Shown: positions 3,305 through 32,387 of the stretch, piece after piece | How the letters are laid out: every line of letters begins with the position of its first letter | Position numbering within the stretch: position 1 is the first letter of the stretch | Notes under the pieces: model-generated | The model's input: only the letters and a program-made list of their open reading frames with translations | Told to the model about the DNA's origin: nothing | The model's database searches: none | From: Ornithinimicrobium sp. CNJ-824 | GTDB lineage: Bacteria > Actinomycetota > Actinomycetes > Actinomycetales > Dermatophilaceae | Length of the DNA stretch: 33,209 nucleotides | Reading direction: 5' to 3' | Assembly: GCF_001942405.1 (NCBI RefSeq) | Contig: NZ_MKKA01000019.1 | Span: 1 to 33,209 of the forward strand | Position numbers and translations under genes: made by a program

Positions 3305-4789
3305 ATGACCTCGCAGCCCTTCCCCACGCTCGAGACCGACCGGCCCCGCGACTACGGGATGCTCATCGGCGGCGAGGAGGTGCCCGCCGCGTCGGGGGAG
3401 ACGATCGACGTCATCACCCCCATCGACCGGCACCGCGTCGTGGCCCGCGTGCCCCGGGGGCGCGCCGAGGACGCCGACCGGGCGGTCCGGGCCGCGCGCG
3501 CGGCATACCCCGGCTGGGCCGCGCTGCCCTTCGTCGAGCGGCAGCGGGCGCTGCTGCGGATCGCCGACGACCTCGAGCCCCTCGTGGAGGACCTGGCCCG
3601 GCTCACCGCGGTCGACACCGGCAACGCGATCCGCACCCAGGCCCGCCCCGAGGCGGCCCTGCTGGTCACCGCGTTCCGCTACTTCGCCGGGCTGGCCGGG
3701 GAGACCAAGGGGGTGACCCTGCCCACGGGCGACGACGCGCTGTCCTACACCCGTCGGCTGCCGCTCGGCGTGGTCGCGGCGATCCTGCCGTGGAACTCCC
3801 CGCTGATGATCGCCGCCTTCAAGCTGCCGGCCGCCCTGGTCGCCGGCAACACGGTCGTGCTCAAGGCCGCCGAGGACGCGCCCACGACGATCCTGGAGCT
3901 GGCCGCGGTCTGCCAGCGGCACCTGCCGCCCGGGGCGATCAACGTCGTCACCGGCTACGGCCCGGAGGTCGGCGAGGCCCTCGTCACCCACGGCGACGTC
4001 GACAAGGTCTCCTTCACCGGCTCCACCGTCACGGGGGCGGGAGTGGCGGCCCGGGCCGGGGAGCGGCTGGCCCACGTCTCCCTCGAGCTGGGCGGCAAAT
4101 CGCCCTGCATCGTCTTCCCCGACTCCGACACCGACGAGGTCGTCGAGCAGGTGCTGCTGGCCACCCGGTTCGCCCGGCAGGGGCAGAGCTGCACGTCCGG
4201 CTCCCGGCTGTTCCTCCACGAGGACGTGCACGACAGCTTCCTGGAGAAGCTCGTCGACCGGGTCTCCCGGCTGACGGTCGGCGACCCCCGCGAGGAGGCC
4301 ACCGACATCGGCTGCATCATCAACCAGCGGCAGTGGGACCGGGTGCAGGGCTACGTCGAGGACGGCCTGTCCACCGAGGGCGTGCACGTCGCCTACGACG
4401 GGCGGCCCGCCCTGCAGGTGGGGGAGCCCGGTTTCTACCACGCGCCGATGATCCTGTCCCAGGTGTCCAACGACTGGCGGATCGCCCGGGAGGAGATCTT
4501 CGGCCCGGTGCTGTCGGTGCTGCGCTGGCGCGACGAGGACGAGGTCGTGCGGATGGCCAACGACACGTCCTACGGCCTGGCGGCGTTCGTCTTCGCCCGC
4601 GACGTCTCCGCCGCGCTGCGGACCGCGCACCGGATCGAGTCGGGCTGGGTGCAGGTCAACCAGGGCGGCGGCCAGCAGGTCGGCCAGTCCTACGGCGGGA
4701 TGAAGTCCAGCGGCCACGGGCGGGAGTTCTCCCTGGAGGGCATGCTCGAGGGGTTCACCCAGATCCAGCAGGTCAACGTCCGCCTCTGA
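3305..4789 (+). CDS. NAD(P)-dependent aldehyde dehydrogenase
   Basis: A 494-residue enzyme of the aldehyde dehydrogenase superfamily, which oxidises aldehydes to carboxylates. It has the coofactor-binding and oxyanion region AAILPWNSPLM, the lysine of NTVVLKAAEDAP, S-F-T-G-S-T, the general-base Glu261 in LELGGKSP, the nucleophile Cys296 in GQSCTSGSR, and EEIFGPVLSVL near the C-terminus. Spacing between Glu and Cys is normal. AGGAG six bases before the ATG supports the start. It resembles betaine-aldehyde/gamma-aminobutyraldehyde type enzymes in general layout, but the physiological aldehyde cannot be named. No pathway partner is visible beside it. Confidence 0.9.
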   Translation: MTSQPFPTLETDRPRDYGMLIGGEEVPAASGETIDVITPIDRHRVVARVPRGRAEDADRAVRAARAAYPGWAALPFVERQRALLRIADDLEPLVEDLARLTAVDTGNAIRTQARPEAALLVTAFRYFAGLAGETKGVTLPTGDDALSYTRRLPLGVVAAILPWNSPLMIAAFKLPAALVAGNTVVLKAAEDAPTTILELAAVCQRHLPPGAINVVTGYGPEVGEALVTHGDVDKVSFTGSTVTGAGVAARAGERLAHVSLELGGKSPCIVFPDSDTDEVVEQVLLATRFARQGQSCTSGSRLFLHEDVHDSFLEKLVDRVSRLTVGDPREEATDIGCIINQRQWDRVQGYVEDGLSTEGVHVAYDGRPALQVGEPGFYHAPMILSQVSNDWRIAREEIFGPVLSVLRWRDEDEVVRMANDTSYGLAAFVFARDVSAALRTAHRIESGWVQVNQGGGQQVGQSYGGMKSSGHGREFSLEGMLEGFTQIQQVNVRL

Positions 4790-4817
4790 GGCGGCCGGTG
4801 ACACGTCCCGCATCTGG

Positions 4818-4823
4818 GACACT
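4818..4823 (+). promoter_or_regulatory. possible -10 hexamer GACACT with overlapping inverted repeat
   Basis: GACACT ends seven bases before ATG 4831. The repeat GTCCC (4805-4809) / GGGAC (4816-4820) overlaps it. GGGAGG touches the ATG directly, too close to act as a ribosome binding site, which favours a leaderless transcript. Confidence 0.35.
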
Positions 4824-4830
4824 GGGAGGT

Positions 4831-5232
4831 ATGACGTCCGACACCACCCTGGTCCTGCTCAAGATCACCGCCGTCCTCACCGCCCTTCTGGGGGTGCTGC
4901 AGGCCGTCCTCGGGTTCCTTCTCGTCGGGGGCACCTGGGTCGGCGCCCACGGGATGATCGGCAACACCACGGTCGTGGTCGCCCTCGTCACCGCGGTCGT
5001 GGCCTTCGTCTGGATGCGTGCCTCGGCCAACAAGGGCCTGTTCATGCACGCGGTCGGCGTCCTCGTGCTCGCCGTCGCCCAGGTCGCCCTCGGCGAGATG
5101 GGCCTGCGCACCGTGCACATCGTCGTCGGCGTCCTCTTCCTCCTGGCCGCCGTCCCGCTGGCCACCCTGGCCATCCGCAAGCCGGGCATGCGCCTGGAGC
5201 GGATCGACCCGGCCCGTCTCCAGGGGCACTGA
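4831..5232 (+). CDS. small four-helix integral membrane protein
   Basis: A 133-residue hydrophobic protein with about four membrane helices (residues roughly 5-30, 40-62, 70-92 and 95-118) and a short basic C-terminal tail ending in R-I-D-P-A-R-L-Q-G-H. I do not recognise a named family; proteins of this kind are annotated as hypothetical membrane proteins in Actinobacteria. No catalytic motif, no signal for export. It follows the aldehyde dehydrogenase after 41 bases with what may be its own leaderless promoter, and it converges on the metal-receptor gene with an 18-base gap that contains no clear terminator. Confidence 0.75.
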   Translation: MTSDTTLVLLKITAVLTALLGVLQAVLGFLLVGGTWVGAHGMIGNTTVVVALVTAVVAFVWMRASANKGLFMHAVGVLVLAVAQVALGEMGLRTVHIVVGVLFLLAAVPLATLAIRKPGMRLERIDPARLQGH

Positions 5233-5250
5233 GCCAGGACCGAGCCGCGC

Positions 5251-6024
5251 TCAGGCCTCCACCGCGGCCAGGTGGTCCCACGCCTCTTCCATGGCGGGGC
5301 CGTACCAGGTGAGCAGCCGGCCGCTGACCAGCCGGGTCGGGGTGCGCCCGAACGCCTCCGGCCCGTCGTCGGCGGTGAACTCGTAGGGCTCGTCGGGCAG
5401 CAGCACGACGTCGGCCCCGGCGCCGTCGACCTCCTCCACCGGCAGGGCGGGGTAGCGCTCGGGGTGGTCGGCGAAGACATTGATGAGCCCCGCCCGCGCC
5501 AGCAGGTCCCCGGTGAAGGTGGCCGAGCCGACGACCATCCACGGGTCCCGCCAGACCGGCACCGCCACGCGGGCCCGCGGCGCCGGCGGGGAGCCGCCGG
5601 CCGGCACCCACAGCTCCCGCACCCGGGCCAGCCAGTCCGGGACGCCCCACGCCAGGACCTCGCCGAAGATCCGCTCCATGGCGTCCACCGCCTGGTCGAC
5701 CGACTCGACGACGCCGACCCACACCGGCACCCCGGCCGCGCGCAGTCGCCGCACGTCCAGCTCGCGGTTCTCCTCCTGGACGGCCAGGACGAGCTCCGGG
5801 TGCAGCCCCGCCACGGCGGCCCGGTCGGGGTTCTTCGTGCCGCGGACCCGGGTCACGTCCAGGTCCGCCGGGTGGGTGCACCAGTCGGTCGCCCCGACCA
5901 GCGCCTCCCGCCGCGTCACGGCCACGGCCTCGGTCAGCGACGGCACGAGCGAGACCACCCGGGTCACCGGCCCGTCCGGCAGCGCGACCTCGGCGCCCAG
6001 GTCGTCGACCACGACCCGGCTCAC
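5251..6024 (-). CDS. helical-backbone metal receptor, BtuF-like, without signal peptide
   Basis: A 257-residue protein with the BtuF/FhuD-like two-lobe pattern: R-V-V-S-L-V-P-S-L-T-E near residue 22-32, V-G-A-T-D-W-C-T-H-P, P-E-L-V-L-A-V-Q-E-E-N, a long backbone helix around V-D-A-M-E-R-I-F-G-E, and A-D-V-V-L-L-P-D-E-P-Y. Such proteins bind cobalamin, siderophores or haem for ABC importers. The sequence starts directly with the folded domain: there is no signal peptide or lipobox and no ABC permease nearby, so an exported binding role is doubtful. GTG at 6024 overlaps the stop of the preceding uridylyltransferase by four bases (GTGA), which indicates coupled translation and supports this start. 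Confidence 0.8.
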   Translation of the reverse strand: MSRVVVDDLGAEVALPDGPVTRVVSLVPSLTEAVAVTRREALVGATDWCTHPADLDVTRVRGTKNPDRAAVAGLHPELVLAVQEENRELDVRRLRAAGVPVWVGVVESVDQAVDAMERIFGEVLAWGVPDWLARVRELWVPAGGSPPAPRARVAVPVWRDPWMVVGSATFTGDLLARAGLINVFADHPERYPALPVEEVDGAGADVVLLPDEPYEFTADDGPEAFGRTPTRLVSGRLLTWYGPAMEEAWDHLAAVEA

Positions 6025-7460
6025 GGGGCCCCCTCCGCCGAGGACCCCTCCAGCACGGTCCCGTCCGGCACCCGCCGGGCCCCGCCCTCGTCGGCCAGCC
6101 GTACCCGTCCGCGGACGACCACGTCGGCCCCGAACGTCCAGTCGCCCTCCACCTCCAGGCCGGCCGCCTCCCGCAGCGACGGCGCCCCCGCGGGGAACCG
6201 GGCGTCGAGGTCGTGCACGAACCGGTAGTGCCGCCGGTCGAGGGTCACGACGGGCAGCGGGTCGGCCTGCGCGACGAGGCGGTACCCCGTGCCCGGCCCC
6301 ACGGCATACGCGTCCGAGCGGAGCAGGAGCAGCTCGTCGGTGCCCTTGACCGGCACGAACCGGTCCCGGCCCACCCCGACGGCCACCGCGTCGTCGAACA
6401 GCTCGACCGCCCCGCCCATCGCGCTCTCGACCTGGACGACCGGCGTGGAGGTGGGGTCGGTCGGGTCGACCGTCTTGGGGTTGCGGATGAGCGGCAGCGG
6501 CAGCGACCCGCCGTGCCGCTCCAGCAGCTCCCGCAGCCGGACCAGGTCCAGCCACAGGTTGTTGGTGTGCGCCCAGGGGTGCCGGTCGCCGTCGGTGAAG
6601 TGGACCAGCTCCTCCTCGGCGGTCTGGGCCGTGTCGCGCAGGAGCAGCCGCCCGTCGGCCCGCCGTCGCACGAGGTGGCCGCCCTTGCGGTCCATCTCGG
6701 TCCGGGGGCAGACCTCGGCGGCGTAGCCGGCGCCGTCCGCGGCGAACCACGCGGCCAGGCGGGCGTCGGGCACCGCGCCGAGGTTGTCGACGTTGGAGAC
6801 GAACAGCTGCCGGTAGCCCTGCTCGAGCAGCGCGTCGAGCACCCCGGAGGCCGCCAGCGTGGGGTAGAGGTCGCCGTGCCCCGGCGGGCACCACTCCAGC
6901 CGCGGGTCGGCCGGGTGGTCGACGGGGGAGAGGTCGTCGGCGCGCAGCTTGGGCTCCCGGCTCTGCAGGACGTCCAGGGGCAGGCCGTCCACGGCCAGGC
7001 CCGGGTATGCCGCGAGCCGCGCCAGGGTGGCGTCGCGGGTGGCGAAGCTGTCCAGGAGCAGCAGCGGAAGCCGGGCCCCCGTCACCTCCCGCAGCGCCAG
7101 CACCTGGCGCACGGTGACGTCCAGGAAGGTCAGGCCGTCGTGCACCGGCAGCAGCGACTTGGGGACGGACAGGCCCATCGAGGTGCCCAGCCCGCCGTTG
7201 AGCACGGCTACGGCCGTCGCGTCGAGCGCGGCGCGGCCGGCGTCGGGGTCGTCGGGCAGGTCGTCCAGCAAGACCTGCGGGGAGGCCGGCTCGACGTCGG
7301 CCTCGCGCACGAGCCCGGTCGCTCCGGACACCAGGGCCTCGTGGTGCCGGACGAACGCCCGCACCGCCGGCTCGTTCACCCCCGCGGCCCGCATCCGGGC
7401 GACCGCCTCGGCCCGGCCCGGGTGGTCGGCGTTCTTCCCGTCGTCCGTCGTCTCTGCCAC
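6021..7460 (-). CDS. UTP--glucose-1-phosphate uridylyltransferase (UDPGP family)
   Basis: A 479-residue protein of the UDPGP family (the larger, eukaryote-like type, not the GalU type), which makes UDP-glucose from UTP and glucose-1-phosphate, a donor for glycans and storage sugars. The nucleotide-binding loop L-N-G-G-L-G-T-S-M-G-L is near residue 84, followed by V-P-K-S-L-L-P-V, L-L-L-L-D-S-F-A-T-R-D-A-T, a W-C-P-P-G-H-G-D-L-Y sugar-nucleotide motif, and V-S-N-V-D-N-L-G-A. I prefer the GTG at 7460: the longer frame runs into the divergent beta-glucosidase promoter and the hexamer CAGGCT sits six bases before GTG. It starts the two-gene operon with the BtuF-like gene. Confidence 0.9.
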   Translation of the reverse strand: MAETTDDGKNADHPGRAEAVARMRAAGVNEPAVRAFVRHHEALVSGATGLVREADVEPASPQVLLDDLPDDPDAGRAALDATAVAVLNGGLGTSMGLSVPKSLLPVHDGLTFLDVTVRQVLALREVTGARLPLLLLDSFATRDATLARLAAYPGLAVDGLPLDVLQSREPKLRADDLSPVDHPADPRLEWCPPGHGDLYPTLAASGVLDALLEQGYRQLFVSNVDNLGAVPDARLAAWFAADGAGYAAEVCPRTEMDRKGGHLVRRRADGRLLLRDTAQTAEEELVHFTDGDRHPWAHTNNLWLDLVRLRELLERHGGSLPLPLIRNPKTVDPTDPTSTPVVQVESAMGGAVELFDDAVAVGVGRDRFVPVKGTDELLLLRSDAYAVGPGTGYRLVAQADPLPVVTLDRRHYRFVHDLDARFPAGAPSLREAAGLEVEGDWTFGADVVVRGRVRLADEGGARRVPDGTVLEGSSAEGAP

Positions 7461-7466
7461 GGTCCC

Positions 7467-7472
7467 AGCCTG
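7467..7472 (-). promoter_or_regulatory. possible -10 hexamer CAGGCT for leaderless uridylyltransferase transcript
   Basis: On the minus strand CAGGCT is followed by six bases and then the GTG at 7460, with no Shine-Dalgarno sequence. It faces the CAGGAT box of the divergent GH1 gene only about 20 bases away. Confidence 0.35.
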
Positions 7473-7490
7473 CCACGGGAGTCGATGCGA

Positions 7491-7496
7491 CAGGAT
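7491..7496 (+). promoter_or_regulatory. -10 hexamer CAGGAT for leaderless beta-glucosidase transcript
   Basis: CAGGAT is followed by GGGACGC (seven bases) and ATG 7504. The same CAGGAT-N7-ATG layout recurs at 19358 before the VOC gene. Confidence 0.5.
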
Positions 7497-7503
7497 GGGA
7501 CGC

Positions 7504-8922
<1,419 letters not shown>

Positions 8923-8932
8923 ACCCCGGGCC

Positions 8933-12571: not shown

Positions 12572-15500
12572 GTGAGCACCGACACCGACGTCCGGACGAG
12601 CGACGAGCAGACCGAGCAGGAGCAGCCGGAGGCGGCCCCGGTGACCCCGGAGCGGCACGTGCCGGTCAACCCGGTGCGGATCGTCACCGCCGCCAGCCTG
12701 TTCGACGGGCACGACGCCTCGATCAACATCATGCGGCGGATCATGCAGACCCAGGGCGCCGAGGTGGTCCACCTGGGCCACAACCGCTCCGTGCAGGAGG
12801 TCGTCGACGCCGTGCTCGACGAGGACGCCAACGGCGTGGCCGTCTCCTCCTACCAGGGCGGTCACGTGGAGTACTTCGAGTACCTCGTGGAGAGCCTGCG
12901 CGAGGCCGGGGCGGGGCACGTGCGGGTCGTCGGCGGCGGTGGGGGCGTCATCGTGCCCGAGGAGATCGAGCGGCTGCGTGGCTCCGGGGTGACGATCTTC
13001 TCGCCCGAGGACGGCCAGCGCCTCGGCCTGCCCGGGATGATCAACCAGGTGGTCGCCGACTGCGACTACGACCTGTGGGAGGTCGGGGCCGCCGAGGTCG
13101 ACGCGGTGCTGGCGGGGGAGCGGACCGCCGTGGCCCGCGCCATCACCGGTGCCGAGACCGGGCGCTGCCCGAGCAGGACCGCAGCAGGTATGCCGTGGCC
13201 GCCGCCGCCCGGACCGTGCCGGTCCTGGGGATCACCGGCACGGGCGGGTCGGGCAAGTCCTCGCTGACCGACGAGCTGGTGCGGCGGGTCCGGGTCGACC
13301 AGGGCGACCGGCTGCGGGTGGCCGTCCTGGCGATCGACCCGACCCGGCGCAAGGGCGGCGGGGCGCTGCTGGGCGACCGCATCCGGATGAACTCGTTGGA
13401 CGGCGACCGGGTGCTGTTCCGGTCGATGGCCACCCGGGGCGACCGCGAGGTGCCCGACGCGGTCCCCGCGGCGATCGACATCCTCAAGTCCGCCGGGTTC
13501 GACCTGGTCATCGTGGAGACCCCCGGTATCGGGCAGGGCGACGCGGGGATCGTGCCGTTCGTGGACACCTCCCTCTACGTGATGACGCCGGAGTTCGGCG
13601 CCGCCTCCCAGCTGGAGAAGATCGACATGCTCGACTTCGCCGACGTGGTGGCGATCAACAAGTTCGAGCGGCGCGGGGCGATGGACGCGCTGCGGGACGT
13701 GGGCCGCCAGCTGGTCCGCAACCGGGAGGCCTTCGGCAAGCGCCCCGAGGACATGCCGGTCTTCGGCACCTCGGCGGCCACCTTCAACGACGACGGCGTC
13801 ACCGCGCTCTACCAGCACCTGCTCGAGCTGCTCGGCGGGCACGGGCTCCAGGTGTCCGAGGGCACGCTGCCGCGCGTGGACGTGCGGCACTCCAGCACGA
13901 TCCGCCAGGTGGTGCCCCCGACCCGGGTGCGCTACCTGTCCGAGATCACCGAGACCATCCGCGGCTACCACGCCGACACCGAGCGCTGGGCCGACGCCGC
14001 CTCCCGGATCCAGCGGCTCGAGGCCGTCGACGACGAGCTGGCCTCGCTGGGCCGCACCGACCACGGCGTGGACGAGCTGCTCGAGCAGGCCCGCAGGGAC
14101 CTCCCCGAGGAGGTGCACCAGCTGCAGCAGGCCTGGCCGGGGATCGTGACGGCATACTCCGGGGACGAGCACACGGTGCGCGTGCGCGACCGGGACATCA
14201 CCACCACGCTCACCCGGGAGTCCCTCTCCGGGACCAAGGTGCCGCGGGTGGCCCTGCCGGCCTTCCGCGACGCCGGCGACATGGTGCGCTTCTGGCGGCG
14301 GGAGAACCTGCCCGGCGCCTTCCCCTACACGGCCGGGGTGTTCTCCTTCAAGCGCGACAACGAGGACCCGGCCCGGATGTTCGCCGGCGAGGGCGACCCG
14401 TTCCGCACCAACCGCCGGTTCAAGCTGCTCTCCGAGGGGCTGCCGGCGACCCGGCTGTCCACGGCGTTCGACTCGGTCACCCTCTACGGCCGCGACCCGG
14501 GCGAGCGGCCCGACATCTACGGCAAGGTCGGCACCTCCGGGGTCTCCATCGCCACCCTGGACGACATGAAGGTCCTCTACGACGGGTTCGACCTGCTCTC
14601 GCCGACGACCTCGGTGTCGATGACGATCAACGGCCCGGCCCCCACGGTGCTGGCGTTCTTCCTCAACACCGCGATCGACCAGCAGCTGGACGCCTTCCGC
14701 GAGCGGGAGGGCCGCGAGCCCTCCGGCGCCGAGGCCGAGGAGCTGCGCGCGCACGCCCTGGCGACCGTGCGCGGCACCGTGCAGGCGGACATCCTCAAGG
14801 AGGACCAGGGGCAGAACACCTGCCTGTTCACCACCGAGTTCTCGCTGCGGATGATGGCCGACATCCAGGAGTGGTTCATCGAGAACGGCGTGCGCAACTT
14901 CTACTCGGTGTCCATCTCCGGCTACCACATCGCCGAGGCCGGGGCGAACCCGATCAGCCAGCTGGCCTTCACCCTGGCCAACGGGTTCACCTACGTGGAG
15001 TCCTACCTGGCCCGGGGGATGGACGTCAACGACTTCGCGCCCAACCTGTCCTTCTTCTTCTCCAACGGGATGGACCCGGAGTACTCCGTCATCGGTCGCG
15101 TCGCCCGCCGGATCTGGGCGGTGGCGATGCGGGAGAAGTACGGCGCCAACGAGCGCAGCCAGAAGCTGAAGTACCACGTGCAGACCTCCGGGCGCTCGCT
15201 GCACGCCCAGGAGATGGACTTCAACGACATCCGGACCACGCTGCAGGCGCTCATCGCGATCTACGACAACGCCAACAGCCTGCACACCAACGCCTACGAC
15301 GAGGCGATCACCACGCCCTCGACCGAGTCGGTGCGCCGGGCGCTGGCGATCCAGCTCATCATCAACAAGGAGTGGGGCCTGGCGATGAACGAGAACCCGC
15401 TCCAGGGGTCGTTCATCATCGACCAGCTCACCGATCTGGTGGAGGAGGCCGTGCTGGCCGAGTTCGACCGGATCTCCGAGCGCGGCGGGGTGCTCGGGGC

Positions 15501-15870
15501 GATGGAGACCGGCTACCAGCGGGGCAAGATCCAGGACGAGTCGATGCTCTACGAGCACCGCAAGCACGACGGGTCGCTGTCGATCGTCGGGGTCAACACC
15601 TTCCGGCGGCCGGAGTCCGAGCGCGAGGAGGTCGAGGTCGAGCTGGCCCGCGCGACCGAGCACGAGAAGCAGTCCCAGCTGCGGCGGGTCACCGAGTTCA
15701 AGGAGGCGCACGCCGACGAGGCGGCCGAGGCGCTGGCCCGGCTCAAGGAGGCCGCGCTCGCCGGGGACAACGTCTTCGCCGTGCTCATGGACGCCGCGCG
15801 GGTGTGCACCCTGCAGCAGGTCACCGAGGCGTTCTTCGAGGTGGGCGGGCAGTACCGCCGCAACGTCTGA
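12572..15870 (+). pseudogene. icmF: fused isobutyryl-CoA mutase IcmF, one frameshift
   Basis: About 1,099 residues once one base is restored. Order of domains: B12-binding (about residues 35-165; [11 protein letters not shown] with the cobalt-ligand histidine), MeaB-like GTPase chaperone (Walker [10 protein letters not shown] near 220, E-T-P-G-I-G-Q-G-D-A-G, base motif N-K-F-E), then the acyl-CoA mutase barrel (F-P-Y-T-A-G-V-F, M-T-I-N-G-P-A-P, H-A-Q-E-M-D-F-N-D, N-S-L-H-T-N-A-Y-D-E-A). IcmF interconverts isobutyryl- and n-butyryl-CoA with adenosylcobalamin. The frame breaks at 13160-13162, where GGG stands for an expected GGGG between G-A-E-T-G and A-L-P-E-Q, in the linker between B12 and GTPase domains. 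The GTG start has AGGAG upstream. Confidence 0.92.
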
Positions 15871-15938: not shown

Positions 15939-19322
<3,384 letters not shown>

Positions 19323-19370: not shown

Positions 19371-20039
19371 ATGCCCGCCGCGCTCGACCACCTCGTCCTG
19401 GCCGTGCCCCACCTGGAGGGCGCGGTCCTGGACCTCGCCCGACGCACGGGCGTCCAGCCGGTGTCCGGCGGCAGCCACCCGGGGCGGGGGACCCGCAACG
19501 CCCTCGTCGGGCTGACCTGGCAGGGGGAGCGTCGGTGCTACCTGGAGCTGCTGGCCCCCGATCCCGACCAGCCGCCCGTCGCGCCGGAGGAGACGATGCT
19601 CGGGCTGGGGGCCCTGGGCGCGGAGTTCGTGCCCCGGCTGCACGCGTGGGCCGTGCGGACCCGCGACCTGGACGCCACGCTGGCCGCCGCGGCCGCCGCG
19701 GGGGTGGACACGGGACGCGCGGTGCGGGCCGGTCGCGACCTGCCCGACGGCACCCGGCTGGCCTGGCGGCTGGCCGTGCCCCGGCCCCTCGCGCACGGCG
19801 GCGTCCAGCCCTTCCTCATCGCCTGGGACGGCCCCCACCCCACGGACGGGTCGATGCCCACGCTCGAGCTCGTCGAGCTGGCCGTCGACCATCCCGACCC
19901 GCAGGCCGTGGAACGGGCCCTGGCCGTCCTCGACGTCGACGTCGAGGTGCACCACGGCCCCCATCCCCGGCTGCACGCGGTCCTCGACAGCCCGGAGGGC
20001 CTCGTCGAGCTGGGGGAGTGCTGCCGTGACCGGTGGTGA
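19371..20039 (+). CDS. VOC superfamily (glyoxalase-like) protein
   Basis: A 222-residue protein that starts with A-L-D-H-L-V-L-A-V-P-H-L, the first beta-alpha unit of vicinal oxygen chelate proteins, with the conserved histidine at the metal position, then G-T-R-N-A-L-V-G-L and Y-L-E-L-L-A-P-D-P, where the glutamate is the usual second ligand. The second half (W-A-V-R-T-R-D-L-D-A-T-L-A-A-A) repeats the fold. It matches the glyoxalase-like type with one long chain rather than a lactoylglutathione lyase. Its substrate is unknown. The end overlaps the start of the GH32 gene by 14 bases, so the two are co-transcribed, although their functions have no obvious link. Confidence 0.85.
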   Translation: MPAALDHLVLAVPHLEGAVLDLARRTGVQPVSGGSHPGRGTRNALVGLTWQGERRCYLELLAPDPDQPPVAPEETMLGLGALGAEFVPRLHAWAVRTRDLDATLAAAAAAGVDTGRAVRAGRDLPDGTRLAWRLAVPRPLAHGGVQPFLIAWDGPHPTDGSMPTLELVELAVDHPDPQAVERALAVLDVDVEVHHGPHPRLHAVLDSPEGLVELGECCRDRW

Positions 20040-21375
20040 GCGGACGACCGGGCCGGCGGGCACGGCATACCACCTGAGGCCGCCGAGCGGCTGGCTGAAC
20101 GACCCCAACGGGATGGTGTTCCACCAGGGACGGTGGCACGTCTTCTACCAGCACAACCCGCAGGCGGCCCGGCACGACCGGATCGCCTGGGGGCACGCCA
20201 GCAGCGAGGACCTGGTCCGGTGGGAGCACCACCCGGTCGCGTTCGGTCCGACCGAGGGCGGTCCCGACGCGTTCGGCTGCTGGAGCGGGGTGCTGCTGCC
20301 GACGCCCGGTGGCGCGGTGGCGCTCTACACCGGGGTGGTGGACGAGTCCCAGGTGAGCACGGTGTGCCTGCGGCGGGGGGACGAGGAGCTGGTGCGCTGG
20401 TCCGGCCCCCGGGTCGTCGCCGCGCAGCCCGGACCGCCCGTGCGGGTGACGCGCGACCCGTTCGTCTGGCAGCACGCCGGCCGCCGGTGGGCCCTGCTGG
20501 GGGCCGGGCTGGCCGACGGGACACCGGCGGTGCTGCTCTACGACGCCGAAGACCTCGCCGACTGGCGCTACGCCGACGTCTGGCTGCGGGGCGACCGGGC
20601 CGACCTCGCCGCCGCGGGCCCGGCCGACGTGTGGGAGTGCCCCCAGCTGGTCCTGCTCGACGGCGGGACCGGGGAGGCGTCGCTGGTCCTCTCGCTGCAC
20701 GACCGGGGGCGGCTCACCCAGGTGGTGGGCGTCGGCGGGCACGTGGTCGACGACGACGGCACGCCCCGGTTCGAGCCGTCGGGCGTGGCCGTGCTGGACG
20801 TGGGCACCTCGTTCTACGCGCCGCAGGTCGCGGCCGACCCCGACCCCGGTGCCTGGCTCCTGGGGTGGGTGCGCGAGGAGGACCGGCACCTCGACGGGCC
20901 TGCCGACGGGCCTGCCGACGGGCCCGACCACGCCGGCTGCCTGACCCTGCCGCGGCGGGTGGTCCCCGACGACCACGGGGCGCACGCGGGTGCGGTGCGG
21001 CTGGTGCTCGACCCGCGGGTGGCCGCCGGTCTGCCGCTGGGGCCGCCGGAGGAGGTGACGGCGCACCAGGAGCTCGACCGGCCCCTGCGGGTGGAGGCGC
21101 TCGCGGAGGGGGCCCGGCTCACCCACGCCGAGCTGCCGGAGGTGCCGTTGGCGGCCGGTGACCTGGTCCTCGTCGACGCGGACGTGCTGGAGGTCTACCC
21201 GGCGCAGGGGCCGCCGACCACGCACCGTCACCCCCGGCCGTGGGCGCTGACGGTCCGACCCGGGCGGGCCGGTCCTGCGGGGCAGGTCGTCGAGGTGCGT
21301 GCGGTCGACGTCAGCCGGCTGCGTCCCCCGACCACACCAGCGGACCGTCAGGTCCGGGGCGCGCCCCCTCGCTGA
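20026..21375 (+). CDS. glycoside hydrolase family 32 beta-fructosidase
   Basis: A 449-residue enzyme that hydrolyses sucrose, sucrose-6-phosphate or short fructans. The three catalytic residues are visible: nucleophile Asp26 in G-W-L-N-D-P-N-G, transition-state Asp144 in T-R-D-P-F-V-W, and acid/base Glu204 in V-W-E-C-P-Q-L. A five-blade propeller is followed by a beta-sandwich tail. There is no signal peptide, so it acts inside the cell. GTG 20026 has a GGGGGAG ribosome binding site and lies inside the end of the VOC gene. A loop at about residues 290-300 is built from a small tandem repeat (D-G-P-A). The last 65 bases overlap tail-to-tail with the DUF488 gene. Confidence 0.93.
   Translation: MTGGERTTGPAGTAYHLRPPSGWLNDPNGMVFHQGRWHVFYQHNPQAARHDRIAWGHASSEDLVRWEHHPVAFGPTEGGPDAFGCWSGVLLPTPGGAVALYTGVVDESQVSTVCLRRGDEELVRWSGPRVVAAQPGPPVRVTRDPFVWQHAGRRWALLGAGLADGTPAVLLYDAEDLADWRYADVWLRGDRADLAAAGPADVWECPQLVLLDGGTGEASLVLSLHDRGRLTQVVGVGGHVVDDDGTPRFEPSGVAVLDVGTSFYAPQVAADPDPGAWLLGWVREEDRHLDGPADGPADGPDHAGCLTLPRRVVPDDHGAHAGAVRLVLDPRVAAGLPLGPPEEVTAHQELDRPLRVEALAEGARLTHAELPEVPLAAGDLVLVDADVLEVYPAQGPPTTHRHPRPWALTVRPGRAGPAGQVVEVRAVDVSRLRPPTTPADRQVRGAPPR
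20893..20924 (+). repeat. 12-bp tandem repeat inside GH32 gene
   Basis: GACGGGCCTGCC is repeated about 2.7 times and encodes D-G-P-A-D-G-P-A-D-G-P in a loop. The frame is kept because the unit is a multiple of three. Confidence 0.8.
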
Positions 21376-24372: not shown

Positions 24373-24545
24373 GCGGGTCCTCCCGGAAGGATCGGCCGGA
24401 CGTGTGTGCCCAGAGTATGCCGTGGGCCGCACCCGCCCCTCCCGTGGTCACGATTCGACAACGAAGGCGTGTCGCCGGTGGACCCTGGGGGCGCTCCGTG
24501 CGTCCAATGGCGGACGCGCCGTCGCAGCACAGGGGAGGACCACGG

Positions 24546-25361
24546 ATGAGGATGCAGCGCTACGAGGGGGTGCCGCGGGCCCTCGCCCGCCTGCCGCTCC
24601 ACCGCCGCGACCTGCTGCGCGGGGGGCTGGGGCTGGTCACCGGGGCGGTCCTGGGCGGGCTGGCCGACAGCTACGACAGGGTCGCCGTCCCACCGCCGCC
24701 CCCGCCCGAGCCGGAACCCGAGCCCGAGCCGCCGCCCCCGCCGCCCGAGCCCGCGGCATACCAGCGCGGCGACGCCGGGGACGGGGTGCTGGCGCTGCAG
24801 CAGCAGCTGGGCGCGACCGGCTACTGGTGCGGAGAACCCGACGGCGGCTTCGGCCACCTGACGCAGCAGGCGGTCTGGGCGGTGCAGAAGGCCCACGGGC
24901 TGGTGCGCGACGGGATCGCCGGCCCTGCGACCCAGGCCGCGATCGAGACCGGCTACCGCCCGGCCCCCGTGGCCGGCGGCGACCACGTCGAGGTCCACCT
25001 GGGCCCGCAGCTGCTCCTCGTCGTCCGCGGCGGGGCCACCACGATGGTGCTCAACACCTCCACCGGGAACGAGGAGCCCTACGAGTTCCGGGGCGAGGAG
25101 TACACCGCGCAGACGCCCACGGGCGACTACGTCGTCGGCTTCATGGACTCCGTCGGCACCGCCGGAGACGGCTGGCGTGAGGGTGAGCTGGGCGAGCTGT
25201 ACCGGCCGATGTTCTACGACGGCAACTACGCCGTCCACGGCTCCGGGTCGATCCCGCCCTGGCCGGCCTCCCACGGCTGCGCCCGCATCTCGACGGCGGC
25301 GATGGACATGTTCTGGTCCGAGGGGCTGCTCGGCATGGGTGGCCGGGTCGTCGTCGTCTGA
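24546..25361 (+). CDS. L,D-transpeptidase with peptidoglycan-binding domain
   Basis: A 271-residue exported protein. The N-terminus carries a twin-arginine-like signal H-R-R-D-L-L-R-G-G followed by a hydrophobic helix. A proline/glutamate hinge (residues about 50-73) leads to a peptidoglycan-binding domain (G-D-A-G-D-G-V-L-A-L-Q-Q-Q-L-G, then D-G-G-F-G-H-L-T-Q-Q-A-V). The C-terminal YkuD domain has H-G-S-G-S-I-P-P and S-H-G-C-A-R-I with catalytic Cys245. These enzymes form 3-3 cross-links in the cell wall or attach proteins to it. GGGGAGG seven bases before ATG 24546 supports the start. An inverted repeat GCGTCC-N6-GGACGC lies at 24500-24517 upstream. Confidence 0.92.
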   Translation: MRMQRYEGVPRALARLPLHRRDLLRGGLGLVTGAVLGGLADSYDRVAVPPPPPPEPEPEPEPPPPPPEPAAYQRGDAGDGVLALQQQLGATGYWCGEPDGGFGHLTQQAVWAVQKAHGLVRDGIAGPATQAAIETGYRPAPVAGGDHVEVHLGPQLLLVVRGGATTMVLNTSTGNEEPYEFRGEEYTAQTPTGDYVVGFMDSVGTAGDGWREGELGELYRPMFYDGNYAVHGSGSIPPWPASHGCARISTAAMDMFWSEGLLGMGGRVVVV

Positions 25362-25380: not shown

Positions 25381-26094
25381 GTGCTGGAGACCTTCTTCGA
25401 CCGTCATCCGGGGTGGATCACCGTCGGCGGGACCGACCATCTCGTCTACGCCACGCTGCTGGTCCTCGTGGCCACCGGGCTGGTCGCCGGCCGCCGCTGG
25501 GTGCGCGCCCACGAGCCCGGAGTGCGCCGGGTGCTCGTCGGCGTGGTGGTCCTCCAGCAGCTGACCCTCTACGGCTTCTACGCCACCGCCGGGTGGGACT
25601 GGGGCGAGTCGCTGCCCCTCCACCTGTCCCGGATCTCGGCCCTGCTGGGGCTGGTCTGGCTGCTCACGCGCGAGCGACGGGTGATGGACGTGCTCTTCTT
25701 CTTCGGGCTCTACGCCTGGGGCAGCTTCTCGTACCCGATGCTCATCCAGCCGGCGACCAACGTGCTCGGCTGGAGCTTCTGGGTCAACCACACGGTCACC
25801 CTGCTCCTGCCGGCCTACGCCTGGATCACCACGGGGTGGCGTCCCACGGCGAGGGCGTTGTGGCGGGCCTTCGGCTGGTTCCTCGCCTACCTGTCCCTCG
25901 CCCTGGTGGTCAACCGGCTCACCGGAGGCAACTACTTCTACCTGCGGGACCGGCCCTTCTTCGGCGACCTCCCGCTGGCGCTCTACCTGCCGGTGGCCGT
26001 CGCGGCCACCCTGGCCCTCTTCTGGCTGGGGTATGCCGTCGCGCGCCTGGTGGGGGAGCGCACCGGGACCTGGCGGGCCGGGGCGGTGGCCTGA
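25381..26094 (+). CDS. TIGR02206/YwaF family integral membrane protein
   Basis: A 237-residue protein with about seven membrane helices. The motif S-L-P-L-H-L-S-R-I-S-A-L-L-G near residue 80 and the later N-R-L-T-G-G-N-Y-F-Y-L match the YwaF/TIGR02206 family, whose role is not known to me. The GTG at 25381 begins M-L-E-T-F-F-D-R-H-P-G-W, typical for the family's N-terminus; I see no good ribosome binding site, so the start is less certain. It lies 19 bases after the L,D-transpeptidase gene and is likely on the same transcript. It converges with the acyl-CoA dehydrogenase, with only six bases between stops. Confidence 0.85.
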   Translation: MLETFFDRHPGWITVGGTDHLVYATLLVLVATGLVAGRRWVRAHEPGVRRVLVGVVVLQQLTLYGFYATAGWDWGESLPLHLSRISALLGLVWLLTRERRVMDVLFFFGLYAWGSFSYPMLIQPATNVLGWSFWVNHTVTLLLPAYAWITTGWRPTARALWRAFGWFLAYLSLALVVNRLTGGNYFYLRDRPFFGDLPLALYLPVAVAATLALFWLGYAVARLVGERTGTWRAGAVA

Positions 26095-27300: not shown

Positions 27301-27366
27301 GGTGCGCTCCTGGGGGTATGCGGTGCTGCTGGGTCGGGCGGTCGCGCCCACCCTACGGGCTGAGGC

Positions 27367-27395: not shown

Positions 27396-27403
27396 GACAG
27401 ACA

Positions 27404-27422
27404 TTGGACAAACGTTGTCCAA
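27404..27422. promoter_or_regulatory. perfect palindrome TTGGACAA-ACG-TTGTCCAA, candidate operator
   Basis: Two perfect 8-bp arms around three bases, unusually A/T-rich for the window. It sits between the divergent gcdH-like gene and the 90-aa gene, next to the predicted transcript start. The form suits a dimeric repressor of TetR or MarR type; no such gene is in the window. Confidence 0.65.
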
Positions 27423-27445
27423 AGCATTCTTCCCAAGGAGTCGTC

Positions 27446-28638: not shown

Positions 28639-28701
28639 GGGGTCGGTGGGCTGTGGCAGGGTGAGCTCGACCCCTGCCCACCCCACCGGAGGTGCCGACC
28701 C

Positions 28702-30255
28702 GTGCAGCCCCAGCCCGACCGCATACCCCCGTCCCTGCCGGCCGAGGAGGAGCTGCGCGGCCGGGCCGAGGCCGCGGCCCGGGCCTGCGGCGTCGACCTG
28801 GAGGCGCACGCCGGGCCGCAGGAGGGCCGGTCCCCGGTGACCGGGACCGTGGTCTCCTCCCTGGCCTGGACCGCCGCCGACGAGGTGCCGCGCGCGGTGG
28901 AGCGGGCCCGGGAGGCCTTCCTCGACTGGCGCGTGGTGCCCGCGCCGGTGCGGGGCGCGCTCGTCAAGCGCTGGGCCGAGCTGCTGACCGAGCACAAGGA
29001 GGACCTGGCCACGCTGGTGACCGTCGAGGCGGGGAAGGTGACCTCCGAGGCGCTCGGCGAGGTGCAGGAGATGATCGACGTCTGCGACTTCGCGGTCGGG
29101 CTCTCGCGGCAGCTGTACGGGCGGACAATGCCCTCCGAGCGGCCCGGCCACCGGCTCAGCGAGACGTGGCACCCGCTGGGGGTCGTCGGGGTCGTCTCCG
29201 CGTTCAACTTCCCCGTCGCCGTGTGGTCGTGGAACACCGCCGTCGCCCTCGTCTGCGGCGACCCGGTGGTGTGGAAGCCCTCCGAGCGGACGCCGCTGTG
29301 CGCGCTCGCGGCCGATGCCCTGCTGGGACGCGCGGTCCGGGAGGCCGGTCACCCCGAGGCCCTCTCGCAGGTGCTGCTCGGCGGTCCGGAGGTGGGCGAG
29401 GCGCTCGCCGCCGACCGCGGCGTGGCCCTGCTCAGCGCCACCGGGTCGACCCGGATGGGCCGGTCGGTGGGGCCGGTCGTGGCCGGACGGCTCGGCCGCA
29501 GCCTGCTCGAGCTCGGCGGCAACAACGCCGCGGTCGTCGCCCCCAGCGCCGACCTCGACCTGGCGGTCCGGGGCATCGTCTTCGCCGCCGCCGGGACCGC
29601 CGGCCAGCGGTGCACCACGATGCGCCGGGTGATCGCCCACCGGGACGTGGTGGAGGAGCTGACGGAGCGGCTCGTCGCGGCCTACCGCAGCCTGTCCGTG
29701 GGGGACCCCTCCCGGCCGGGCACCCTCGTGGGGCCGTTGCTGGACGCCCGCTCCGCCGTGGCGTTCCGGGCGGCCGTGGACCGGGCCGTCGAGGACGGCG
29801 GCGAGCTGCTGGTCGGGGGTGAGCGGGTGCTCGAGGAGGAGGCCCCGGAGGCCTTCTACGTGCGACCGGCCGTCGTCCGGATGCGCGCGCAGACCGAGGT
29901 GGTGCACACCGAGACGTTCGCACCGCTGCTCTACGTGATGACCTACGACACCCTCGAGGAGGCGGTGGCGATGAACAACGCCGTGCCCCAGGGACTCTCG
30001 TCCAGCATCTTCACGCGGGACCAGGCCGAGGCCGAGCTGTTCTGCTCCGCGGAGGGCTCCGACTGCGGCATCGTCAACGTCAACATCGGCACCTCCGGGG
30101 CGGAGATCGGAGGAGCCTTCGGCGGGGAGAAGGACACCGGCGGGGGACGGGAGTCCGGGTCCGACGCGTGGAAGGCCTACATGCGGCGGAGCACCACGAC
30201 GGTGAACTACTCCGGGGAGCTGCCGCTGGCCCAGGGGGTGACGTTCGAGGTGTGA
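28702..30255 (+). CDS. ALDH7-type aldehyde dehydrogenase (aminoadipate-semialdehyde / P6C dehydrogenase-like)
   Basis: A 517-residue aldehyde dehydrogenase. Catalytic residues: Glu270 in L-L-E-L-G-G-N-N-A and Cys304 in A-G-Q-R-C-T-T. The end, G-T-S-G-A-E-I-G-G-A-F-G-G-E-K followed by T-G-G-G-R-E-S-G-S-D-A-W-K, is the signature of the antiquitin/ALDH7 group, which oxidises 2-aminoadipate-6-semialdehyde (in equilibrium with piperideine-6-carboxylate) in lysine breakdown. GGAGGT eight bases before the GTG supports the start. The nearby GcdH-like gene would act later in the same pathway; no lysine 6-aminotransferase is seen here. Residues 7-10 (D-R-I-P) use a rare ATA codon inside the recurring GCATAC motif. 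Confidence 0.9.
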   Translation: MQPQPDRIPPSLPAEEELRGRAEAAARACGVDLEAHAGPQEGRSPVTGTVVSSLAWTAADEVPRAVERAREAFLDWRVVPAPVRGALVKRWAELLTEHKEDLATLVTVEAGKVTSEALGEVQEMIDVCDFAVGLSRQLYGRTMPSERPGHRLSETWHPLGVVGVVSAFNFPVAVWSWNTAVALVCGDPVVWKPSERTPLCALAADALLGRAVREAGHPEALSQVLLGGPEVGEALAADRGVALLSATGSTRMGRSVGPVVAGRLGRSLLELGGNNAAVVAPSADLDLAVRGIVFAAAGTAGQRCTTMRRVIAHRDVVEELTERLVAAYRSLSVGDPSRPGTLVGPLLDARSAVAFRAAVDRAVEDGGELLVGGERVLEEEAPEAFYVRPAVVRMRAQTEVVHTETFAPLLYVMTYDTLEEAVAMNNAVPQGLSSSIFTRDQAEAELFCSAEGSDCGIVNVNIGTSGAEIGGAFGGEKDTGGGRESGSDAWKAYMRRSTTTVNYSGELPLAQGVTFEV

Positions 30256-30318
30256 GCGGCCAGACTGGCCAGGAGGCGTCGACCTGCGGGGTTGACGTCC
30301 GGACGAAGGAGTGAGCAG

Positions 30319-30510
30319 ATGAGCCGCAGCACCGACCGCTCGCAGGACCCCTCGCCGTTCGCGTGGATCCTCGGCGGGGCTCTGGCGATGATCGCCGCCG
30401 GCAGCGTGATCCGGGCGGTCACCGGACGACGGGGGAGCGGAGGACAGGACGTGGCGGGCGGCCGGGACGCCGGGGACGCCGATGCCGACCTCGCCGGTCA
30501 CCCCAGCTGA
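30319..30510 (+). CDS. small single-helix membrane protein (63 aa)
   Basis: Sixty-three residues with one hydrophobic helix (about 13-35, F-A-W-I-L-G-G-A-L-A-M-I-A-A-G), then a basic G-R-R-G stretch and an acidic tail with D-A-G-D-A-D-A-D. No family recognised. AAGGAG seven bases before the ATG is a clear ribosome binding site. The last 29 bases overlap the start of the LOG-like gene, which implies coupled translation. The 63 bases upstream hold a 13-bp palindrome (30258-30270) but no convincing promoter. Confidence 0.7.
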   Translation: MSRSTDRSQDPSPFAWILGGALAMIAAGSVIRAVTGRRGSGGQDVAGGRDAGDADADLAGHPS

Positions 30511-31003
30511 CCGCCCGCCGGCCTACGTCGGGGTCGTCGGGCCGGGGGCCGGCGCGACGACCGGGCAGGTCGGACAGGCGCGGGAGCTCGGCCGGTCGTT
30601 GGCCGGGCGGGGTCTGGTCCTGGTCACCGGGGGCCTGGACGGGGTGATGGACGCGGCGGCGGCCGGGTGCGAGGAGGTCGGTGGCGTGAGCCTCGGGCTG
30701 CTGCCGGGGTCGGACCGGACGACCGCCGGCCCCCACCACACCGTCAGCGTGCCCACCGGCCTGGGCGAGCTGCGCAACGGGCTCGTCGTCCGGGCCAGCG
30801 ACGCCGTCGTCGCGGTCGGGCCCAGCTGGGGAACGCTGAGCGAGGTGGCGCTCGCCTGCCGCACGGGGGTGCCCGTCGTGCTGCTGGGCTGGCCGGAGCA
30901 CGCGCTGGAGGGGATCGGCGGCCCTGGTCGCCCGCCGGTGCGGTCCGCCTCGGTCACCGAGGCCGTCGACCTGGTCCTGGAGACGCTGCAGAGGTCGTCC
31001 TGA
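30482..31003 (+). CDS. LOG/SLOG-superfamily protein (TIGR00725-like)
   Basis: A 173-residue Rossmann-like protein: Y-V-G-V-V-G-P-G, L-A-G-R-G-L-V-L-V-T-G-G-L-D-G-V-M-D-A-A-A-A-G, L-G-L-L-P-G, and S-W-G-T-L-S-E-V-A near residue 118. The G-G-x-x-G-V-M and G-T-L-S-E blocks are those of the LOG-like/SLOG families that bind nucleotides; the shorter TIGR00725 type is not a proven cytokinin-riboside phosphohydrolase. The usual glycine of the P-G-G-x-G-T-x-x-E motif is replaced by S-W-G-T, so catalysis may differ. Starts at ATG 30482 inside the small membrane-protein gene. Confidence 0.82.
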   Translation: MPTSPVTPADRPPAYVGVVGPGAGATTGQVGQARELGRSLAGRGLVLVTGGLDGVMDAAAAGCEEVGGVSLGLLPGSDRTTAGPHHTVSVPTGLGELRNGLVVRASDAVVAVGPSWGTLSEVALACRTGVPVVLLGWPEHALEGIGGPGRPPVRSASVTEAVDLVLETLQRSS

Positions 31004-31009
31004 CGCCAG

Positions 31010-31300
31010 GGAGCAGATGACGTGGTCGCTCGAAGAACACGGCGGCGACAGCCCCCAGGCAGGATGACGGCCACCGGCAGCAGCAGGGCGTCGGCCAGGG
31101 CCGACGCCACCCCGGCATCGCCCGCTGCGCCCCACCGCGGAGGGGGGTTTCCCCGCCCGGCGGGAGCGACCCCATACGCTCCGATCCTGAGCGGGCCGAC
31201 AGCCGGGCCTCCATGAGGACGGCGATCGCCGCGCTGCCGAGGACCGCCCCCAGCTGCCGGGTGGTGTTGTAGCCGATGACCAGCGCCCGCAGCGCCGGCC
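31010..31300 (-). pseudogene. C-terminal remnant of a DHA2/EmrB-QacA drug exporter (MFS)
   Basis: On the minus strand one frame reads I-G-Y-N-T-T-R-Q-L-G-A-V-L-G-S-A, matching the penultimate region of 14-helix MFS exporters, then a second frame gives A-S-A-L-A-D-A-L-L-L-P-V-A-V-I-L, then the first frame resumes with G-A-V-A-A-V-F-F-E-R-P-R. About 90 residues remain; the first 350 or more are gone, as the quinone-oxidoreductase promoter begins directly upstream. Two compensating indels, one of them an extra C near 31057-31060, mark decay. Confidence rests on motif recognition. Confidence 0.6.
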
Positions 31301-31379
31301 ACGGGCTCGTCGGGGTGCCGGCCGGGGTTCCCGTGCCGGCGGTGCCCGTGGACACGGGGGCACTGTATGGGGTGCCTCC

Positions 31380-31396
31380 GACGGAGTCTGTCCGTC
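31380..31396. promoter_or_regulatory. inverted repeat GACGGA-N5-TCCGTC in the quinone-oxidoreductase promoter
   Basis: Perfect 6-bp arms around GTCTG, centred about 20 bases before the TAGGGT -10 hexamer, thus over the -35 region. A binding site for a redox-responsive regulator is possible but unproven. Confidence 0.4.
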
Positions 31397-31404
31397 GCCG
31401 TGGG

Positions 31405-31410
31405 TAGGGT
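31405..31410 (+). promoter_or_regulatory. -10 hexamer TAGGGT for a leaderless quinone-oxidoreductase transcript
   Basis: TAGGGT, six bases (CGGGAC), ATG 31417, without a Shine-Dalgarno sequence. Confidence 0.5.
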
Positions 31411-31416
31411 CGGGAC

Positions 31417-32387
31417 ATGCGCGCAGTCATCGTGGAGCAGCCCGGAGGGCCCGAGGCCCTCACCCTCGTCGAGCGGGAGACGCCCGAGCCCGGCCCCGGC
31501 GAGGTCCGCGTCGACCTGGCGGCCGGTGGGATCAACTTCATCGACGTCTACCAGCGCAGCGGACGCTACCCGTTGCCGCTGCCGTTCGTCGGCGGGAACG
31601 AGGGGTCCGGCACCGTCTCGGCAGTCGGGGAGGGTGTCGAGGACGTGCAGCTGGGCGACCGCGTCGCCTGGGCCATGACTCCCGGGAGCGGGTATGCCGA
31701 GCAGGTCCTGGTCCCGGCTGCGCGCGTCGTCCCGGTGCCCGACGGGATGGACCTGGAGCTCGGTGCCGCGGTCATGCTGCAGGGGATGACGGCGCACTAC
31801 CTGGTCAACTCGACGTTCGAGGCGAAGGAGGGGCAGACCGCCGTGGTGACGGCCGCCGCCGGTGGTGTCGGCCTGCTGCTGTGCCAGATGCTGCGAGACA
31901 AGGGGGTGCGGGTCATTGGGACCGTCGGCAACCGGGAGAAGGTGGAGCTGGCCAAGGAGGCGGGGGCCGACGAGGTCGTGCTCTACCGGGAGGTCGACCT
32001 GGCCGAGGAGGTTCAGCGGCTGACGACGGGGAGGGCGTGCACGTGGTCTACGACGGCGTGGGCAAGGACACCTTCGACGCAGGGATCTCGGTGCTGCGTC
32101 CGCGGGGGATGATGGTGCTGTTCGGCGCGGCGAGCGGGCCGGTGCCTCCGGTGGATCCGATGGTGCTCAACCACGGTGGTTCGCTCTACCTGACCCGGCC
32201 CACGCTGGCGCACTACGCCGCCGAGCGTGAGGAGCTGCTGTGGCGTGCCGGCGAGGTGCTCGGCGGGGTGGCCGACGGGTCGCTGAAGGTGCGGGTCGGT
32301 GGGCGTTACCCGCTCGCCGAGGCCCGGCGTGCCCACGAGGACCTCGAGGCGGGCGGCACGACGGGCAAGCTGCTGCTCGTGCCCTGA
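31417..32387 (+). pseudogene. NADPH:quinone oxidoreductase (zinc-independent MDR family), one frameshift
   Basis: About 323 residues when one base is restored. Seen: G-G-I-N-F-I-D-V-Y-Q-R-S-G-R-Y, G-N-E-G-S-G-T-V, and the NADPH-binding T-A-A-A-G-G-V-G-L-L-L-C-Q, all typical of zeta-crystallin-like quinone reductases, which lack the zinc ligands of alcohol dehydrogenases. After the break come V-H-V-V-Y-D-G-V-G-K-D-T-F, P-R-G-M-M-V-L-F-G-A-A-S-G and a C-terminal G-K-L-L-L-V-P. The frame breaks at 32028-32031, where GGGG stands for an expected GGGGG (L-T-T-G-E-G-V-H). Both halves keep full conservation, so a sequence error is more likely than a dead gene. Confidence 0.88.

Follow-up and report, generated by a model that had tools for sequence, protein, structure and literature searches.

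The Octamer in the Window

The stretch of DNA considered here (the window) comprises 33,209 nucleotides of Ornithinimicrobium sp. CNJ-824 (contig NZ_MKKA01000019.1) and contains repeated copies of the octamer GGTATGCC, a candidate DNA uptake sequence. The word is non-palindromic, its opposite-strand reading being GGCATACC. Ten exact copies are present, as compared to 0.33 expected from dinucleotide shuffles (maximum in 100 shuffles, 2). Markov models of orders 1, 2, and 3 fitted to the window predict 0.35, 0.33, and 0.52 copies, respectively, and at order 3 the Poisson p for ten copies is ~3e-10. The order-4 expectation goes up to 5.06 because the 5-mer counts then contain the word itself. An earlier note on this DNA had reported the ten copies, and every coordinate it gave is correct. 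Its spacing of about 2 kb was too short: one copy occurs per 3.3 kb of the window and per 4.9 kb genome-wide.

On the minus strand, the copy at 3502..3509 lies in an aldehyde dehydrogenase gene (3305-4789, plus strand; codons GCG GCA TAC CCC), and that at 8515..8522 in a family-1 glycosyl hydrolase gene (7504-8922, plus strand; GGC ATA CCC, with the rare ATA). The other minus-strand copies also fall in genes called on the plus strand: 17598..17605 in 15939-19322 (GGC ATA CCC), 20064..20071 in 20026-21375 (ACG GCA TAC CAC), and 24755..24762 in 24552-25361 (GCG GCA TAC CAG). On the plus strand, the copy at 7004..7011 is located in a gene called on the minus strand (6021-7460; GCG GCA TAC CCG). 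The copies at 16036..16043 (gene 15939-19322), 26030..26037 (gene 25381-26094), and 31691..31698 (gene 31417-32112) are read in plus-strand genes as GGG TAT GCC. Finally, the plus-strand copy at 13187..13194 ends immediately ahead of the start called for a fused MeaB/methylmalonyl-CoA mutase gene (13195-15870, plus strand).

One-mismatch words number 21 in the window, or 31 with the exact copies, vs. 17.7 expected, so that this set as a whole is only mildly enriched. The five such forms singled out in the earlier note are all present and make up only part of the 21. Together with a sixth at 4828, they keep the core GTATG intact, and the same class is enriched in a wider sample. These are GGTATGAC at 4828..4835 (plus strand, outside called genes), CGTATGCC at 6303..6310 (minus strand, of the tolerated class), AGTATGCC at 14151..14158 (minus strand) and at 24414..24421 (plus strand, outside called genes), and GGTATGCG at 27315..27322 (plus strand) and at 28720..28727 (minus strand; codons CGC ATA CCC). 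As a side observation, the fused MeaB and methylmalonyl-CoA mutase gene, which we take to be IcmF-like, was located at 13075-15870 of the window.

Abundance in the Genome and among Relatives

The window's own assembly (G000; 3,445,055 bases in 62 contigs) contains 344 + 361 = 705 copies of GGTATGCC vs. 4 + 2 = 6 copies of the reversed word. This 118-fold excess is exceeded in the congener G006 (198-fold) and falls to only 8-15-fold in the weaker congeners G023 and G018. In a 400-kb sample of G000, 89 copies were found, as compared to 4.5 expected from a third-order Markov model; the enrichment surmised from the window thus holds for the genome. With the word itself left in the background, the excess at order 3 in this sample is about 20-fold, and with the copies masked, GGTATGCCG is in 64- to 80-fold excess. 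The most enriched 8-, 9-, and 10-mers in 433 kb of G000, window included, were GGTATGCC, its extensions, and words overlapping it.

The octamer is also common in relatives, as proposed for checking in the earlier note. In 29 of 30 congeners its copy number ranges from 285 (G023) to 2,180 (G006, a complete genome); the word-poor exception is G022 with 38 copies. Counts of GTATGCCG were then available for 186 genomes of the family (handle f1), which we take to be the Dermatophilaceae of GTDB and the names of which NCBI taxonomy divides between Ornithinimicrobiaceae and Intrasporangiaceae. With a word-rich cut-off of our own choosing (350 copies) and a tally made by hand, 108 of the 186 genomes and 30 of the 53 genera exceed 350 copies, with a maximum of 4,724 in G155. 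Intermediate counts of 288-341 occur, for example, in G061, G075, G082, G084, G091, and G204. Entire genera are low (g2, 12 of 12 genomes; g52, 16 of 16), and word-poor members stand within word-rich genera (G022, 50 copies; G065, 37; G140, 19). G141, a congener of G140, has 3,681 copies. In some genomes the reversed-word control is inflated by a dialect favoring C ahead of the core.

An order-level sample of 396 genomes includes 35 members of the family and 361 genomes from outside it. None of the latter has more than 180 copies of GTATGCCG, and the genome with 180 copies has 195 reversed words. Where the word exceeds its reversed form in these genomes, it does so about fourfold at most and in small numbers. 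The nearest comEC genes in named genomes belong to Ornithinimicrobium tianjinense (70%) and O. cavernae (55%), with Phycicoccus, Knoellia, Dermacoccus, Tetrasphaera, and others next. Among loci of about 22 kb from named genomes, those with frequent copies belong to O. tianjinense, O. cavernae, Phycicoccus sp. Soil802, Knoellia remsis (14.5 kb), and a Tetrasphaera metagenome-assembled genome; few or no copies are present in those of Phycicoccus jejuensis, the uncultured Phycicoccus L130, and Dermacoccus abyssi. Among the sampled genomes, the word is confined to one family and is patchily absent inside it.

Reading Phases, Codons, and Conservation

Copies of the word occupy all six reading phases as well as non-coding DNA in both G000 and G006. 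The phases were assigned with a simple gene caller of our own, and genes missed by it would count as non-coding. On this basis, 71 coding and 28 non-coding copies were found in G000 (202 and 339 per Mb, respectively), and 53 coding and 16 non-coding copies in 100 kb of G006 (574 and 2,066 per Mb). The density outside called genes is therefore 1.7-fold (G000) and 3.6-fold (G006) that inside them. Relative to the gene, the word reads about as often in the same as in the opposite orientation (39 and 32 times in G000, and 24 and 29 times in G006). The claim that both orientations occur, within and between genes, is borne out in both genomes. One codon pair in one frame does not explain copies found in every phase.

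The word supplies a large part of certain rare codons. In 433 kb of G000 it accounts for 33 of 91 TAT, 5 of 13 ATA, and 24 of 381 GCA codons; in G006, for 92 of 284 TAT and 52 of 76 ATA. In the window, the rare ATA codons at 8515, 17598, and 28720 were confirmed, as were the rare TAT codons at 16036, 26030, and 31691. The fourth TAT of the earlier note, at 13187, is doubtful, since that copy precedes the gene start as called here. GCA, described earlier as nearly absent, is merely rare. The occupation of six phases and of non-coding DNA, the third-order enrichment, and the rare codons carried by the word support the earlier proposal that selection acts on the DNA word itself, not on the protein.

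Of 19 directed comparisons between species whose proteins are about 70% identical, 10 retain the whole word at the same codons. Other 8-mers with five G/C are retained in 22% of cases, and words containing TAT or ATA in 13%; because shared sites were counted twice, the p of 0.004 overstates the significance. Sites are kept in 0 of 3 and 0 of 6 cases in the word-poor G022, and in 0 of 1 from O. cavernae to G016. An alignment of comEC from 11 species holds just two word positions and is little informative. Words facing each other within 60 bases occur once in 433 kb of G000 and once in 100 kb of G006. Such pairs are too rare for a hairpin to be the function, and this idea was rejected.

Core and Dialects

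A scan for one-mismatch variants of GGTATGCCG covered 433 kb of G000 and, in G006, 500 kb. Changes within GTATG are enriched twofold at most where counts exceed 3. Most changes at positions 1, 7, 8, and 9 are enriched, by factors ranging from several-fold to over tenfold. For position 9 this holds chiefly in G006, where its change to C was observed 114 times vs. 1.5 expected. A change of position 8 to T is the exception in both genomes. Since the edges are tolerant and changes inside GTATG are hardly enriched, GTATG is the core of the word. The flanks around the copies in 433 kb of G000 share nothing beyond a few bases.

GTATGnCG is the most frequent frame in the majority of the 27 word-rich samples, and the base ahead of the core, the n, and the following bases vary among species. 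The dialect of G000 is [GA]GGTATGCCG[TC][GC], and that of G006 is GGTATGCC followed by a less strictly chosen base. G014, G033, and G034 use GTATGnCG, G155 uses CGTATGCCG, and G105 uses GTATGCCGC. Several of the dialect samples span only 14-40 kb, and L127 is nearly the same stretch as the G105 sample. Of all GTATG pentamers, 20-100% lie within GTATGnCG in the 27 word-rich samples (at least 80% in 14 of them; G095 with 20% and G097 with 50% are weak) vs. 0-50% in the 7 word-poor samples having any GTATG. In the word-poor G022, G031, G032 (100 kb each), and G140 (60 kb), the top words are less extreme and, by eye, codon-like.

G065 is the sole member of its genus without the GTATG word. It has 1,924 copies of CGTAGASC, as compared to 477-650 in four congeners, and 22 of 32 copies in 40 kb fall in one coding phase. 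This may be a codon effect or a new dialect.

Strand Distribution

The single contig of G006 (3,597,394 bases) was sampled in 26 stretches round the circle, of which L232 and L249 overlap by 7 kb. The two strands carry 172 and 178 copies, respectively. No strand heterogeneity was detected (chi-square 17.3, 25 degrees of freedom, p 0.87), and the link with GC skew is not significant (rho −0.34, p 0.09). The smaller samples gave 47/42 copies of GGTATGCC in G000 and 13/11 in G034. Counts of GTATGCCG by strand are 25 vs. 15 in 80 kb of G033, and, in 20 kb each, 6 + 3 in G062, 8 + 5 in G063, and 9 + 5 in G064. With no replichore polarity in G006, words of the types FtsK orienting polar sequence (KOPS) and architecture imparting sequence (AIMS) were ruled out, and the polar chromosome-organizing role offered in the earlier note is contradicted.

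Prophages and Word-Free Regions

Prophages of about 40 kb are inserted inside comEC in G002 (G002:C1:1161212-1201313) and G017 (G017:C46:68541-108976). The comEC profile matches are split at profile positions 30-37. The insertion lies at about the same site in both genomes, near conserved Ser-Gly-Ser-Asn-Val codons. In both cases a serine integrase adjoins the right junction. Matches to tail and single-stranded DNA-binding proteins were obtained in G002, and one to an endolysin in G017; two of nine proteins had no match. The arrangement is reminiscent of the Listeria phage in comK.

The word is scarce in these prophages: one site in 40.1 kb vs. 17 in 39.9 kb of flank in G002, and two in 40.4 kb vs. 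10 in 39.6 kb of flank in G017. Pooled, this gives 3 sites per 80.5 kb vs. 27 per 79.5 kb, that is, the word is ninefold rarer in the prophages (p 4e-6). For GTATGCCG, the pooled counts are 5 in the prophages vs. 31 in the flanks. L255 of G006 begins with transposase genes, of the IS110 and IS21 types, that likewise lack the word, and an 8-kb gap in G006 (L244, 463-8461) contains the 16S-23S-5S rRNA genes. Some word-free gaps are non-foreign. In G000, a gap of 18.9 kb (L040) contains ordinary genes, e.g., those of PPK2, 1-deoxy-D-xylulose 5-phosphate (DXP) synthase, and a Na+/H+ antiporter (five proteins searched).

A Candidate DNA Uptake Sequence

By analogy with known systems, GGTATGCC is likely to be a DNA uptake sequence (DUS), a tag of self-DNA for natural transformation. 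The copy number, the core with tolerant edges, the dialects, both orientations, the prophage scarcity, and the patchy absence together make up the profile of a DUS. Among the roles offered in the earlier note, an uptake-like sequence fits best, the others being weakened, unsupported, or contradicted. We propose that a receptor, probably either a minor Tad/Flp pilus subunit or some other DNA-binding protein of the cell surface, would bind the core GTATG and read the bases beside it with species-specific preferences. The bound DNA would be drawn to ComEA and enter through ComEC, and recombination of the tagged fragments would keep and spread the word. We consider evenly balanced the broader proposal that GTATGnCG is a family-wide self-DNA password with dialects, read by a Tad/Flp pilus, and a third independent origin of uptake sequences, this time in monoderm cells. 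To our knowledge, pili of the Tad/Flp class are not known to read sequence.

Uptake sequences are named for two Gram-negative families in PMC5031613 and PMC7811141. The DUS of Neisseriaceae is, according to PMC3630211, also a short non-palindromic word with hundreds to thousands of copies, a short invariant core, dialects between relatives, and some relatives without the word; its atypical distribution in integrated elements is mentioned in PMC7371117. The DUS ATGCCGTCTGAA (PMC5031613) has ATGCCGT in common with the extended G000 word, which we take as coincidence. In contrast to DUS, the core here is GTATG rather than CTG, the hosts are Gram-positive actinobacteria, the uptake role is assigned by analogy, and a ComP-type receptor is unlikely.

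The uptake signal sequence (USS) of Pasteurellaceae has extended AT-rich flanks, which were not seen around the copies of G000. As described in PMC5031613, USS is similar in having hundreds to thousands of copies over the chromosome, often within genes, while its sequence (AAGTGCGGT) is unrelated. It also belongs to a different phylum and pilus type. Micrococcus luteus, of the same phylum as the present hosts, is transformed via Flp pili and ComEA/ComEC; like them it is an actinobacterium with comEA/comEC and Tad clusters, and its transformation requires the Tad clusters (PMC4322843). The phrase 'uptake sequence' is absent from PMC4322843. The open-access literature searched, with subscription papers and preprints outside its scope, yielded no uptake sequence in Actinomycetota among the papers listed, and a search with the letters of the word gave unrelated titles among the matches listed.

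Several observations weigh against assigning an uptake role to the word. comEC and the T2SSE-family ATPases are equally common without it, and among comEC and T2SSE ATPases in 186 genomes no gene was found whose presence tracks the word. No receptor candidate came to light either, a ComP-like one included: the type IVa marker PilM_2 is present in just 7 of the 186 family genomes. The comEA-like gene of G000 (L070, 1-817) lies in two frames, one with the SLBB part and the other with the helix-hairpin-helix part, which points to a sequencing error or a broken gene. In two word-rich species comEC holds a prophage, as described above. The reading phases are uneven: two of the six account for 57 of the 71 coding copies of G000 and for 31 of the 53 of G006. 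G033, alone among the smaller samples of GGTATGCC, is lopsided by strand (11 vs. 2 copies of GGTATGCC in 80 kb, p 0.02). A literature search found no transformation data for these species. Finally, the scarcity in prophages and the core with tolerant edges would also fit a word like HIP1 of cyanobacteria (PMC4390886), considered below.

If the uptake role is correct, an independent case in Actinomycetota would mean that sequence-specific DNA uptake evolves repeatedly, and these bacteria could become transformable with tagged DNA. The approximately 30 word-bearing genera, with their dialects and single-species absences, would then be a natural experiment on the origin of tags and on species barriers. 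If the role differs, an explanation is still required for a family-specific word that, in the richest genomes, outnumbers its reversed form more than 100-fold.

Alternative Explanations

A word like HIP1 (highly iterated palindrome 1) of cyanobacteria, which an orphan DNA methyltransferase and mismatch repair, rather than uptake, would create and maintain, is an unlikely explanation. PMC4390886 describes HIP1 as a very frequent octamer whose variation is mostly confined to its two end bases and which is nearly absent in some lineages, with other words instead in some; in all this it resembles the present word. HIP1 is, however, palindromic and methyltransferase-associated, whereas GGTATGCC is asymmetric. 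PF01555 occurs in 6 of 24 word-rich vs. 11 of 24 word-poor genomes, PF00145 in 15 of 24 vs. 11 of 24, and PF02384 in 12 of 16 word-rich genomes, the only ones searched for it. No one of the three occurs throughout the word-rich genomes tested: G192, with 2,163 copies of GTATGCCG, lacks all three, and G006 has only PF02384. The methylation target suggested in the earlier note is thus unsupported by these families.

A non-polar site for an abundant nucleoid or chromosome-organizing protein would suit copies that have either orientation and lie within genes as well as between them, and seems improbable all the same. The congener counts range from 38 to 2,180, single species nearly lack the word, and its dialect drifts; the strand counts of G006 contradict a polar KOPS/AIMS version. 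We know of no nucleoid protein with sites of such a kind.

A recombination signal of the Chi type, recognized by RecBCD or AdnAB, appears very improbable. A length of eight bases and numerous copies in coding DNA would be in keeping with this role. Chi sites are usually polar, however, and the word has no polarity round the G006 chromosome. The excess of more than 100-fold over the reversed word in G000 and G006, the lack of the word in entire genera of the family and in the other 361 genomes sampled in the order, and a dialect varying within one genus also argue against Chi, so that this suggestion of the earlier note is weakened. Taken together, all phases, both orientations, no polarity, and prophage scarcity exclude codon bias and polar chromosome-guiding words and disfavor Chi.

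A by-product of codon or dipeptide preference, for which the commonest phases in G000 (Gly-Tyr-Ala, Arg-Tyr-Ala, and Ala-Tyr) might speak, or a dispersed mobile repeat has a negligible chance of being the explanation, the former being ruled out by six phases, non-coding copies denser than those in genes, and rare TAT and ATA concentrated in the word, and the latter opposed by flanks unshared beyond a few bases.

Competence and Pilus Genes

In the family, comEC was found in 180 of 186 genomes and genes of T2SSE-family (pilus) ATPases in 185 of 186. The ComEC of G000 consists of 746 amino acids with the Pfam domains Competence and Lactamase_B, and the comEA-like gene adjoins its gene. G000 has four T2SSE matches. 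With PilM_2 so infrequent, a type IVa pilus receptor was set aside as unlikely.

The Tad genes of G016 encode RcpC, Tad, and T2SSF domains. A Flp-type Tad cluster lies beside ftsZ in the word-rich G013 and G016, and also in the word-poor G022. The only gene there that is common to G013 and G016 and missing in G022 (L051) is a second DivIVA-like gene, which follows the ftsZ-side Tad genes (L227, 13604-14908, in G016; L226, 13308, in G013). Split, doubled, or weak comEC matches were seen in G118, G123, G124, G150, G157, G170, G183, G190, and G202; the gene may be repeatedly interrupted in the family, or these may be assembly errors.

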